Shown: positions 10,991 to 58,950 of the stretch, one piece after another
Numbering within the stretch: position 1 is the first letter of the stretch
How the letters are laid out: the number at the start of each line of letters is the position of its first letter
NCBI GenBank assembly: GCA_002786025.1
Contig: NHNW01000054.1
Location: 186,001-250,000, forward strand
Direction: 5' to 3'
Length of the DNA: 64,000 bases
DNA from: Zasmidium citrigriseum
Lineage: Eukaryota > Ascomycota > Dothideomycetes > Mycosphaerellales > Mycosphaerellaceae
Notes under the pieces: generated by a model
What the model was told of the DNA's origin: nothing
Databases searched by the model: none
Seen by the model: only the letters and a program-made list of their open reading frames with translations
Position numbers and translations under genes: made by a program

Positions 10991-11094
10991 AGCCCCTACG
11001 AGACCGTGAGTGCCCCAGGAGTGGCTTGGTCGCATGGAGAAAGCTTGACGTAATGAGGGTGGGGAGTAGGTGCGAGTGACACATGTGAAGCGAC

Positions 11095-11147
11095 GACTGA
11101 AGGGACAAGTGAAGGGACGAGTGAAGGGACGAGTGAAGGGACAACTG
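11095..11147 (+). repeat. 12-bp tandem repeat, about four copies
   Basis: The unit GAAGGGACGAGT recurs with small changes (GAAGGGACAAGT, two exact, GAAGGGACAACT). It lies 70 bp upstream of the preferred start of the CorA-like gene. In the open upstream extension it would encode KGQ/KGR repeats, which argues that the extension is untranslated leader. Confidence 0.8.
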
Positions 11148-11219
11148 AAGTATCTACCATTGTCGACCGTACACTCAGCTGACACTACCACTCCCACTCC
11201 ACCGAATGCTGCATCGACA

Positions 11220-12886
11220 ATGTTCAGCCCCCGCAAAAGTCATCTCGTGCGACATCTGGATAGCCTGGCGAATGCCTCACCGAGCGCCTCGCGTCTACGA
11301 TGCATCGCATACTACATTTTGCATCGTCATCCCCCAGACGGAGCGGTGCTCACCGGTACCTACGGCAACCCGCACGTTCAACCAGACGAGGACTTCTCGC
11401 TACAGATCATCGACATCTCAGGGCTGCATAATGAGACACGGATCGTACATGCTGTGAGGCTGGACGAGCTGTACTACGACCATCTCGATCGAGACCAGCG
11501 TGTGAACAAGCTTCTGGACAACATCAGACACTGCGGAGATGACACACATACGCGCTTCATAGTTCTGAACAGGTTTGAGATCAGTGAGTATCTATGGAAC
11601 TCGCATCTGGACATCCTCGTCCTCATCCACATCATGGTCGTGGAGCTCAAGATCTGTGCGGAAGCGGTCGAGACGATACTTCGACCTCTCATTGACCAAA
11701 TCCCTCCGGAGGTCATTCACGACAAGGACATCCACTACGCTATCCCTCCATACGGTCGCTGCATCGGAGACCTGTCGCTAGGCCCGGCGCGACTGGACGA
11801 TCCGCACTGCTTGAGTTGGCAGATATCGGCGACAGACGTCGGCAAATGCAATCTCAATGGACGCATGGTGGACACAGGTGAGTTCACAATGAGCAAGACA
11901 TGGTCGAACAATGCTGACAGTCACGCAGTGTTCTTCTGCTCAGACAGTCCTGGATTCAGAGCGCGACTTGGGTTGTTCGGATACGGCCACCGGAGGCGCT
12001 TGGGTCTTTTCGACTGCTTTGACTCTATTCCCCTCCGAGAATGGCAAATTCCCAGCTTTCAGCAACACATCGCTGCCGGCAGTGGGAGATCGGGGCAGGT
12101 TACCAAGTCAATGCCTCTCTGGACAGCCGCACTCATCCGAACAGCCATGTTGCGATACTCCATCACGCCGACAGTGACGAACCGCGACATCCAGTCACTA
12201 CTAGACATGGACGACAGCTCCCACGAGCGACGTTGTCAGATTGCTTTGGGCCTCTATCAATCGGCAAACATGGATCTTCTCAAGATCGAGAACTTCCTCG
12301 CCGAACACTGCGACTTCACCACTAAGGAATGCACTTCGGTACTGCGATCTTTTCGGATGATGGTGGAAAGACTGAGAGTGGACTCTGAGGAAATTTTCTC
12401 TGGCTTCGAACGACGGTCGACGCTCCGTAGTCTCGAAATGGCAAGGCTATCGATTGATGAGAGCCGTTCAACGATCCGACGTACGCACAAATACAGTCTC
12501 CACATGTTTCAACGACAAGACTAACTATCTTCTTAGTGACCTGGCTTGCTTCAATCTTCATACCCATTGGCCTCGCATCGTCCATCTTCGGCATGAACGT
12601 CCGAGAGATCAACGCGGACACGACCGGCATCTAGCAGTTCGCCGTGACTTCAGCCGTGCTCCTCGTTCTGTCGGCATGCTCCTGGTATTTCCTCCGCGCT
12701 CTACGCAACTACGCACTCTGCATCAAGAGGTTACGTCTGCTCCACTGGCTTCACTGGGCCTTGCTGCCGGTGCTCGTGTATCAGGAAATCAGGGATGCAT
12801 GCAAGCGTACACATACGAAAGCGATCTGGTATTTGCTAGGATTCAGGAAGGTGGATGAGTTGGGATTTACGGATCTTCGGGCATGA
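11220..12886 (+). pseudogene. CorA-like divalent cation transporter gene with in-frame TAG between its two membrane helices
   Basis: The C-terminus carries IFIPIGLASSIFGMNV, the first transmembrane helix and GMN signature of CorA Mg2+ channels. Before it lies a long soluble domain typical of fungal CorA-like proteins. My exon model is 11220-11877, 11929-12480 and 12537-12634. Intron 1 (51 nt, GTGAGT...GCAG) keeps the frame even if retained. Intron 2 (56 nt, GTACGC...CTTAG with branch CTAAC) is needed to reach the GMN exon. The frame then hits TAG at 12632-12634, 12 residues after GMN. Beyond the stop it stays open to TGA at 12886 and encodes the second hydrophobic helix (QFAVTSAVLLVLSACSWYFL) and a basic tail. 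The intact family needs both helices, so this is either a fresh nonsense allele (TGG to TAG would restore it) or stop-codon readthrough. An upstream in-frame ATG exists at 11070. Confidence 0.65.
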
Positions 12887-13507
12887 TTTGGTCTCTTTGG
12901 ACGGTGTACGGTACGTCGGTATGCTTGGCGAGGGCTACTTCTAACAATGTATTCCAACGAACGACAACCATTCCCCAATCCAGCTCTCCAACAAATCCAG
13001 TGGCGATTTGGGATCGAAATCCATGAATCACATGCTCGCCAAAAGACGCTAGGCTTGATTCGGCAGGGCTGGATGAAGTGAGCAACCAGGGCCGACAAGG
13101 CGAGTTCGGAGACCCTAAATTCTTTGAAGATACACTTCCATCAGATCGCCCCATGGCCGATACCTGTCCTCTACGTACTTAGTGTTTCAACACAGCGAGG
13201 CGGCAGATGCCCTAGATGGCGTATTCGTCCAGCGCTGCCTGGATAGGGAAAATCTCTACTCGGAGCGAAGTAACGTTCTCTTTACGTTCTGTCACAGGAT
13301 GCGAACCCTCCAAGGCCTGTCTAAAACCCTATAATAGGCAATGGATCAAGGCTGTAGCCGCGAAACGACATCCACGTTGTCGGTAGGGTAGCTCTATGCG
13401 TCGTCAGCTCGGACGAATATAAAGAAACGGCGTCATCCACCTACACACTATCATACAGCTTCGAAGCCTCGGACACACCAGAATACCCATTCTACACATT
13501 CTTCAAC
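12887..13507. promoter_or_regulatory. Intergenic region with TATA box of the repeat-precursor gene
   Basis: A 621-bp gap. TATAAA at 13418-13423 lies about 85 bp upstream of the ATG at 13508, an unusually clear TATA promoter that suggests strong or regulated expression. A minus-strand frame at 12867-13154 has no recognisable content and I did not call it. Confidence 0.55.
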
Positions 13508-14338
13508 ATGCAATTCAAAGACCTCGTCCTCCTCCTCGCCGCGGCGGGCTCCACGACCGCGCTCCCCGCCCCCCACCAAGAAGCCCCCGTCCGTCGCCAG
13601 ACCAACGGCTTCGGCAGGGAGCGTTTCTATCAGCCCTGGTTGCTTAACAACCCCAATCTCGACGGCGACTTCTCCAAGCGTGATGCAGAGGCTCTTGCGA
13701 AGCGCCAGGGTAGATGTAAGTCCAAACACCATCCCCCCTACTCATAACCTTCACTAAGAACAAGACCTCGAAACCCCGGGCTGGGGCACCCCGAACCCCG
13801 GCTGGAGCAGCAACCCCCTCTACCCGTGGCTCCAACCACCTAGCAACGGCCGCCCCGCCAAGCGTGATGCTGAGGCTCTTGCCCAGCTCGAGAGTAGGTG
13901 AAAGTCCAAACACTGCTATCCTTCCTACTCATGACCATCGCTAAGAACAACAAGACCTCGATTCCCCCGGCTGGTGGAACCCCAGCTGGACCAATGGCAA
14001 CCCCTACCCGTGGCTCCAACCACCTAGCAACGGCCGCCACGCCAAGCGTGATGCTGAGGCTCTTGCCCAGCGCGCGGGTAGGTGTAAGCCCAAACACCAT
14101 CCTCCATACTCATGACCATCGCTAAGAACGACAAGACCTCGAAACCCCCGGCTGGGGCGCCAACAACCCCGGCTGGACCAATGGCGACCCCTACCCGTGG
14201 TTCCAACCACCCAACAACGGTGGTGGTGGCCCAGCCAAGCGATTGCTCGCCAGGCAATATCCTCCGGGCCCGGCCCAGGGCCCGCAAAACTTCGGTAGAC
14301 CATTGGACCAGCCAGCCCAGCCTGGTGGCGGCTTCTAA
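13508..14338 (+). CDS. Secreted Kex2-processed repeat peptide precursor built of tandem exon modules
   Basis: I predict 222 residues from four exons: 13508-13715, 13765-13893, 13955-14083 and 14136-14338. A signal peptide (about 1-19, ending near TTALPAP) is followed by four W/P/G-rich repeats. Each ends in a dibasic site: FSKRDAEALAKR, RPAKRDAEALAQ, RHAKRDAEALAQ and GPAKRLLARQ. The repeat core reads LETPGWG..NPGW...PYPWLQPPSNGR. KR is a Kex2 site, and DA-EA-LA after it are X-Ala dipeptides of the type trimmed by a Ste13-like peptidase, as in alpha-factor precursors. The mature peptides have no cysteine, unlike known filamentous-fungal alpha-pheromones. Exons 2 and 3 are each exactly 129 nt and phase 1-1, and the three introns are similar to each other, so whole exon-plus-intron units were duplicated. 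Function (signalling peptide, RiPP or effector) is unknown. No DUF3328 or tyrosinase gene was seen nearby. Confidence 0.8.
13765..14135 (+). repeat. Tandem exon-intron modules in the repeat precursor
   Basis: Unit 1 is 13765-13954 (129-nt exon plus 61-nt intron). Unit 2 is 13955-14135 (129-nt exon plus 52-nt intron). A third related exon follows at 14136, and a related intron precedes unit 1 at 13716-13764. The introns share CCAAACAC near the donor, CTCATGACCATCGCTAAGAAC or a close variant, and a CAAG acceptor. Confidence 0.85.
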
Positions 14339-14909
14339 ACGGATCGTGGGGCTCGTGAGGAAGGGGGCGTGGAGATAGCGAGGAGGACAGGAGTGCATAG
14401 GAATGTCTACTGTACTGTACTGTAACGATAAGAGACTCCGCACTGGTCGATGGCTTAGACTTCATTCAACATGAAGATGGGGTCCGAGGCATTCACGCCT
14501 ACTCTGCTCTCCTTTCCCCGTCGGAACCAGGAGATCAGTCGTCTCAAAATCGTTGCTCAACTGCAAGCTCTTGAAGGGCCTACAGCACTCTTGGTCCTGT
14601 GCGACCGAATCAGAGAGCGCTGTCCGTTTGGCCAGAACACGGAAGTTAGATAGTCCAACGGACTGCACTCTTCCTTCTTGTTCTAGCAACAAGCAAGAGT
14701 GAACCGCATGGGAGAGCGCGCTTTCTCCGTGGTTGAAGCCAAAGCCATGGCGTCCTTCACGGCGTCTTTCCACTGTTGTATATGTTGAAAGCAGGGGAAC
14801 AAGCGACATGGAACAAAGCAAGCAGTTTTCTTGAAGGTAATAAAGTACATTATGTCTACATGCTCTCTCGTCGCTGAACTTTCTCGCTAAGCAACCCAAT
14901 CAGCCCAGC
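14339..14909. other. Intergenic region
   Basis: A 571-bp gap holding the 3' end of the repeat-precursor gene and the promoter of the CAP gene. A minus frame at 14462-14899 shows no domain, signal peptide or splice support. Nothing else was seen. Confidence 0.45.
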
Positions 14910-58280: not shown

Positions 58281-58950
58281 ATCGATCCCCGCTGCACCGT
58301 CTCCATCCAAGCTCTCCAAATGCTTCTCAAGGTACTACCAGAACTCGACAGTCCCGCGGAGATACCAACAGGTCCAATACGTGAGTGAAGCCACAAGTGA
58401 GCCTACAAGTGAGCCGACAAGTGAGCCGACAAGAGCTAAGAAGTAAGCTGACAAGTGAGCTAGTAAATGAGCCGACAAGTGAGCCGATAAGGAGTAGATT
58501 CCATAAAGCTGGGCCGAAAGCAGGGAGAACATCTCGGGATAAGGAGGAGGACAAAGGAGACAGCAGTAGCCGGGGACGGGATAGACCTGAGATACCCCCC
58601 AAGATACCACCGCCGAGACCAACACCTAAGATACCCAAAGGATGCGACAATCGATCGCCGCCAGAATACGTCTGTCTAAGCTCCCCGATTCCAGCTCGAG
58701 CTACTGCTAGTACTCTACAGTCCCGCGAGGACGCTATTAAGAAACACTGCCGATCGATCTCCCCTACATCGCATCCATCCAAGCTCTCCAAATGCCCCTC
58801 GAACTACTACTAGAACTCTACGGCTTCCCGGGGATACTCATAGTCCTACGGAATGCTAACTATCGATCCCCGCTACATCGTCTACACCCAAGCTTACGGA
58901 ACCTAGGTTAAGCTACTACTGGAACTCGATAATCCCGCTAGGATATTAAG
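58281..58950 (+). repeat. Array of degenerate ORF-like repeats (about 110 bp unit)
   Basis: Four related segments begin near 58281, 58680, 58751 and 58861. Typical DNA reads ATCGATCCCCGCTACATCGT, CCATCCAAGCTCTCCAAATG and CTACTACTAGAACTC. In one frame they encode IDPRCTVSIQALQMLLKVLP, QLELLLVLYSPARTLL, IDLPYIASIQALQMPLELLL and IDPRYIVYTQAYGT followed by a stop. Between copies 1 and 2 lie AAGATACC(C) repeats and a 12-bp CAAGTGAGCCGA repeat (58394-58490). Stops and frameshifts show that the array is not an intact gene. Origin unknown. Confidence 0.65.

Follow-up and report, generated by a model that had tools for sequence, protein, structure and literature searches.

A predicted secreted repeat precursor of Zasmidium citrigriseum with an intron in its tandem unit

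The window, a 64,000-nt stretch corresponding to C99:186001-250000, comes from a 280.7-kb contig (C99) of a 44.4-Mb genome in 148 contigs. At 13508-14338 it contains a candidate gene for a repeat protein, the repeats of which are separated by introns. What would such a gene produce, and how did the introns come to be part of the repeat?

Gene model and predicted processing

All three forward frames carried stops within the locus (translation of 13508-14338), so the 222-aa protein would exist only if the transcript is spliced. The four predicted exons joined into 669 nt, encoding 222 aa plus the stop, with the frame intact. The junctions of the original prediction were found exactly where it had placed them, and the three introns, 49, 61 and 52 nt long, run from GT to AG. 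The predicted features are as follows.

13418-13423 (+), TATAAA box, read in the sequence
13508-13597 (+), putative signal peptide at about codons 1-18, then a pro-part whose last two codons (29-30, 13592-13597) give RR
13508-13715 (+), exon 1, 208 nt; leader, unique 26-aa peptide, KR (13676), DAEALA (13682), KR (13700)
13716-13764 (+), intron 1, 49 nt, GT..AG, phase 1
13765-13893 (+), exon 2, 129 nt; core 1, KR (13860), DAEALA (13866)
13894-13954 (+), intron 2, 61 nt, GT..AG, phase 1; its donor precedes by 6 nt the site homologous to the other two donors (13900)
13955-14083 (+), exon 3, 129 nt; core 2, KR (14044), DAEALA (14050)
14084-14135 (+), intron 3, 52 nt, GT..AG, phase 1
14136-14338 (+), exon 4, 203 nt including the stop; core 3, KR (14237), tail LLARQYPPGP...

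An antisense ORF (14004-14465, - strand, 153 aa) had no Pfam match at E <= 0.1 and was treated as spurious.

The predicted protein starts with a hydrophobic stretch followed by TTA-LPAP, which resembled a signal peptide by eye and by hydropathy. Kex2-type sites are present as RR at residue 29 and KR at residues 57, 65, 102, 143 and 190. DAEALA follows three of the five KR sites (at residues 59, 104 and 145). These motifs agreed with the proposal that the product is secreted, is a repeat precursor of Kex2 type and bears processing signals like those of alpha-factor. The X-Ala dipeptides (DA-EA-LA) had been expected after KR; this held at three of the five sites, and failed at KR65, followed by QGR, and at KR190, followed by LLAR.

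We infer that a four-exon transcript would be expressed from the TATA promoter and spliced, and that its product would enter the secretory pathway. Kex2 would cut after RR and KR, giving 7 fragments. A Kex1-type carboxypeptidase would take off the two basic residues, and DA-EA-LA would be stripped by a dipeptidyl peptidase of Ste13 type. Five products would exceed 20 residues: a unique peptide of 26, three related linear ones of 35, 33 and 39, and a tail of 31. In the genome, one match to the Kex2-type P domain and two DPPIV_N (DPPIV-type peptidase) proteins were found.

Four of these five products would begin with Gln (after RR, KR, ALA and ALA, respectively), and the tail with LLARQ; the Gln content of the precursor is 6.8%. 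This suggested that the first four peptides would likely carry N-terminal pyroglutamate, a feature reported for Coprinopsis cinerea KEPs produced in Pichia (excerpts of PMC9769878). The N-terminal Gln of array peptide 1 lies at a different codon position from that of the other two, and the copies are related. The three related peptides share the core P-G-W ... NP-x-W ... YPW-x-QPP-x-NG, which is rich in W, P, G and N, and their alignment contained 21 invariant columns. The predicted peptides are hydrophilic (GRAVY -1.1 to -1.4).

Kex2-processed repeat proteins are, as originally stated, known in fungi, and are termed KEPs (PMC6339444, PMC7329392, in the portions available). According to PMC6339444, in its accessible text, a KEP has a signal peptide and yields, when cut at KR or RR, at least 4 fragments of at least 2 residues, at least 3 of them similar, with repeats covering no less than 15% of its length. 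The predicted protein gave 7 fragments against the minimum of 4. Exactly three of them were similar, as judged by alignment rather than by the published FIMO step, and the repeats accounted for about 45% of the length (3 x 35 of 222 residues). By these counts, and with cleavage as predicted, the gene would be a KEP at the minimum of three repeats. It resembles the KEPs of the two surveys, as far as these are available, in its signal-peptide-like start, its three or more similar fragments between KR or RR, and its Ste13-type X-Ala spacers. It differs in that each core lies behind an intron copied along with it.

Neither the precursor nor its paralogue (below) matched a Pfam family. Protein-database searches (8000 candidates scored), also with the exon-1 ORF (2 candidates) and a two-sequence alignment (7997 candidates) as queries, gave no match at E <= 10; this is a weak negative, the fungal coverage of the database being uncontrolled. 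A first DNA pattern for the core matched 0 places in the genome and missed its own gene as well, and was thus uninformative. The core motif was not found by a literature text search. KEPs are very diverse, with 838 types and 2560 members without homologues (PMC7329392, in part).

The tandem unit and its introns

The repeated unit was located at the DNA level.

13674-14220 (+), tandem array, 3 copies of a 184-nt unit composed of KR-spacer, intron and core

TRF found 3.0 copies of the 184-nt unit (score 687, 83% matches), and a separate repeat search gave copy spacings of 184/184 and 184/187. The TRF score ruled out a chance repeat. The unit opens with the KR and spacer close to where one exon stops, continues across the intron, and finishes in the core of the following exon. 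It crosses an exon boundary and therefore does not equal one exon. This removed the earlier equation of one exon with one repeat and one peptide.

The introns were expected to resemble each other, and they were indeed 88-90% identical over ungapped columns (43/49, 43/49 and 47/52) with intron 2 counted from 13900, the homologous position. At the position homologous to the other donors, unit 2 reads GAAAGT, and the frame is preserved by a GT lying 6 nt upstream. Up to the KR region, the core measures 93 nt in exon 2 and 87 nt in exon 3, a difference of 6 nt. Exons 2 and 3 are both 129 nt long with phase 1 introns, as predicted. Their equal length results from two offsetting 6-nt differences, the donor shift and the core length, and we interpreted it as a coincidence rather than a designed feature. 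Exons 1 and 3 likewise have a GT 6 nt before their donors, so that alternative in-frame donors may exist there.

Intron 2 with short flanks (71 nt) matched 2 places in the 44.4-Mb genome, both within this gene. Spreading of mobile (introner-like) introns was rejected, since the intron 2 query had no matches outside the gene. This suggested that the introns are alike because the whole unit was duplicated, in line with the prediction that the intron had been copied within the repeat module.

Four equivalent repeats had been predicted, and three were found. At the DNA level, the exon-1 peptide did not resemble any of the three cores (p 0.64, 0.87 and 0.42; 2000 codon shuffles). A short PWL motif was common to this peptide and the cores by eye, and a repeat search placed the peptide in a 60% family over a stretch that included spacer and intron. 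A fourth core in exon 1 was rejected by the DNA comparison only; the share of exon 1 in the array is its KR-DAEALA end, to which intron 1 adds.

A paralogue and other precursors in the genome

One relative was found, on contig C57 (E 5.1e-8, 67% over residues 1-39; reverse search E 3.0e-8). A DNA search of the genome with the upstream region and leader gave no third family member. The two genes had three flanking blocks in common.

13126-13327 (+), upstream block, blastn 152/205 (74%)
13338-13440 (+), upstream block, blastn 82/107 (77%)
14369-14482 (+), 3' UTR block, blastn 87/114 (76%)

The DNA search with the upstream region and leader gave 75% and 79% for the same upstream blocks, and the 5' UTR plus leader matched at 80% (blastn). 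From TATA to ATG (13418-13507) 72/90 nt were identical, the TATAAA box being kept in the alignment. The leader (13508-13597) was identical at 72/90 nt, with a dS of 0.70 and a dN of 0.115 over 30 codons, which suggested that it is under constraint. A MAFFT alignment missed the distal promoter block found by blastn, giving 135/286 for 13126-13417. About 376 bases upstream of the paralogue (C57:497238-497613) are absent near 13330 in the window.

The rest of exon 1 matched the paralogue at 36/109 nt, and the array plus tail at 292/602 in a forced alignment. Thus, as judged by these alignments, the paralogue appears to have kept the same promoter and leader, and its predicted mature part is barely alignable to this gene.

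The paralogue was predicted to have four exons with intron phases 2, 0 and 1, and a low-complexity mature part rich in G, N, Q and F. It contains only two Kex2-type sites, each followed by GEQAEQ, and is not a KEP. Comparison of its intron 3 with introns 1-3 gave z of 1.7, 0.5 and 2.1, at best suggestive of a common unit; its introns 1 and 2 gave z of -1.9 to 0.7. Its exon 4 against exons 1-4 of the window gave p of 0.010, 0.042, 0.022 and 0.186, again at best suggestive, and its exons 2 and 3 gave p of 0.075 to 0.64.

The core dS of 0.155-0.350 and the 10-12% differences between array introns were lower than the leader dS between the paralogues. This suggested that the gene duplication probably came first and the tandem copying later, unless the copies are kept alike by conversion. 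The array would have arisen by tandem copying of spacer, intron and core, probably after the split from the paralogue.

The pattern KR-[DE]A-[DE]A was found at 19 places in the genome, against 3 for the reversed control. Six lie in a pheromone-type precursor on C20 and three in this gene; repeat precursors on C65, C88 and C126 account for one each, and the remaining 7 of the 19, inspected by eye, did not resemble such precursors. All four of these other precursors, with 9, 4, 3 and 3 motif copies, carry their counted repeats in one uninterrupted ORF. This suggested that the spliced build is unusual among the precursors seen. The original prediction had considered a build of one exon per peptide to be unusual; the spliced repeats did stand apart from the four, and the one-exon-per-peptide part did not hold.

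The terms intron, exon and splic- were absent from the main texts of the KEP surveys PMC6339444 and PMC7329392 in their available portions. A literature search at title and abstract level, with subscription journals mostly outside its scope, yielded no description of an intron-per-repeat precursor.

The precursors on C88 (C88:13337, +, L019) and C126 (C126:38713, +, L025) both have NPFDDPG before KR. A tyrosinase-like ORF, recognized by eye, contains a KREAEAEP stretch (C127:343248, +, L026).

Possible products and alternatives

We consider it rather probable, judging from the predicted protein, that the product is a KEP that is secreted and gives linear, non-mating peptides. The core number at the lower limit for a KEP, the paralogue with its two Kex2-type sites and the lack of database matches weigh against this reading. 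With higher confidence, we expect the peptides to act outside the cell, on the hyphal surface or on other organisms, rather than in mating or as cyclic toxins. Our confidence in any single one of these outside roles is low. The epichloecyclin precursor GigA is also a secreted Kex2-type precursor with imperfect repeats, and its peptides are cyclic nonapeptides (PMC9233826, in the text available).

The peptides, or the uncut protein, may be structural parts of the hyphal surface and not signals or weapons. The Ustilago Rep1 repellents come from a comparable Kex2-cut precursor of several longer peptides. The peptides obtained from Rep1 build fibrils in the wall (PMC6374014, from its accessible part). 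The length of the peptides here (33-39 aa), their content of aromatic residues, Pro, Gly and Asn, and the G/N/Q/F-rich, low-complexity mature part of the paralogue would fit such a role. On the other hand, their hydrophilic character does not suggest a surface-active peptide and sets them apart from Rep1. We regard a structural role as possible, and less probable than the main reading.

Selection on the repeats was estimated from the divergence of the copies. The DNA identity of the cores was 92, 80 and 85%, no higher than that of the introns. The dN/dS values between cores were 1.48, 0.67 and 0.83, based on few changes; those of whole units were 0.61-1.65, with the values that involve copy 3 resting on a poorly aligned spacer. 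The cores have thus diverged about as much as the introns, and the repeats show no sign of purifying selection. Neutral decay with no conservation of the repeat in related species had been named in advance as an outcome that would speak against the prediction. The comparison points in that direction and counts against a function of the repeats, within one gene only.

This result raises the alternative of a recent internal duplication without use, with the cores drifting neutrally whether or not the gene is expressed. The similar divergence of cores and introns, the dN/dS near 1, and the loss of one ancestral-type donor speak for it. However, the frame, the KR sites and the W and P positions are kept in all three copies, the lost donor was replaced 6 nt upstream with the frame kept, and the leader is constrained against the paralogue. 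We consider an unused duplication improbable.

The gene could also encode a cyclised dikaritin-type RiPP precursor served by UstYa enzymes elsewhere in the genome. Dikaritin and other UstYa-linked precursors are likewise secreted, of Kex2 type, and repeated; aromatic residues are present here, and 43 pieces matching UstYa were found in the genome. None of these pieces, however, lies on contig C99, and the cores are long. A different repeat precursor, with four DDTN-x-FCSK copies (C65:73461, -, L017), is flanked by three UstYa matches (C65:71856-76196), and likely forms a UstYa-linked RiPP locus with them. A dikaritin-type product of the present gene seemed very unlikely.

The pheromone-type precursor of the same genome is another gene, of the two-Cys alpha type, with 8 CGVPGQACNKR plus variants in one ORF of 485 aa (C20:17765-18597, -, L009-L014). 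A single STE2 gene was found, in two adjoining pieces on C74. The alpha-pheromone core has two Cys or, in Pleosporales, reads PYG[LM]P[IV]G (PMC6339444, as available); the present protein contains neither Cys nor PYG, so the conserved core is absent. A main or second alpha-type mating pheromone is the least probable of the alternatives: the leader, the Kex2 and Ste13-type signals and the repeated peptide are arranged as in ascomycete alpha-pheromone precursors, but the protein has no Cys, its repeats are spliced, its cores are 33-39 aa long against 9-24 aa for known alpha pheromones (PMC6339444, in part), and the two-Cys precursor and the single STE2 gene are found elsewhere. Together with the lack of Cys here and of UstYa nearby, these two genes argue that the locus is neither the main pheromone gene nor a UstYa-linked RiPP gene.

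Returning to the secreted repeat protein, its unusual points are the spliced repeat unit and the pairing of a fixed leader with a variable body in two paralogues. A bolder reading, of rather low probability, is that the two genes belong to a family of secreted precursors whose promoter and leader stay fixed as the mature part changes freely. Tandem copying of spacer, intron and core would have produced its multi-peptide member, and splicing or copy number could tune the peptide mix. Each core lies behind a phase-1 intron, so that skipping of exon 2 or 3, the tandem donors or the number of units would alter the peptides with the frame intact.

The locus bears on how new KEPs arise, and has a comparison gene in the same genome: promoter and leader are alike, and one copy carries a spliced peptide array and the other does not. 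If the number of units or the use of exons varies between isolates, this would be a simple route to an altered mix of secreted peptides. If the peptides are uncut or the cores unconserved, the array would be an ordinary internal duplication.

The neighbours in the window, 19 of whose 54 ORFs of at least 150 aa were examined in Pfam, included a GCP5-type gamma-tubulin-complex protein, a KRE2/MNT1-type mannosyltransferase, a GH88-type enzyme and an ABC transporter, and formed no obvious peptide-modifying cluster. At 11070-12900, a 484-aa ORF without a Pfam match is followed by a stretch that, by eye, resembles the end of a membrane protein and contains a GMN motif before a stop. From this motif we presume that it may be a CorA-like gene. 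Short tandem repeats with a 12-nt period, in-frame if coding, were found at 58384-58491 and 11081-11150.
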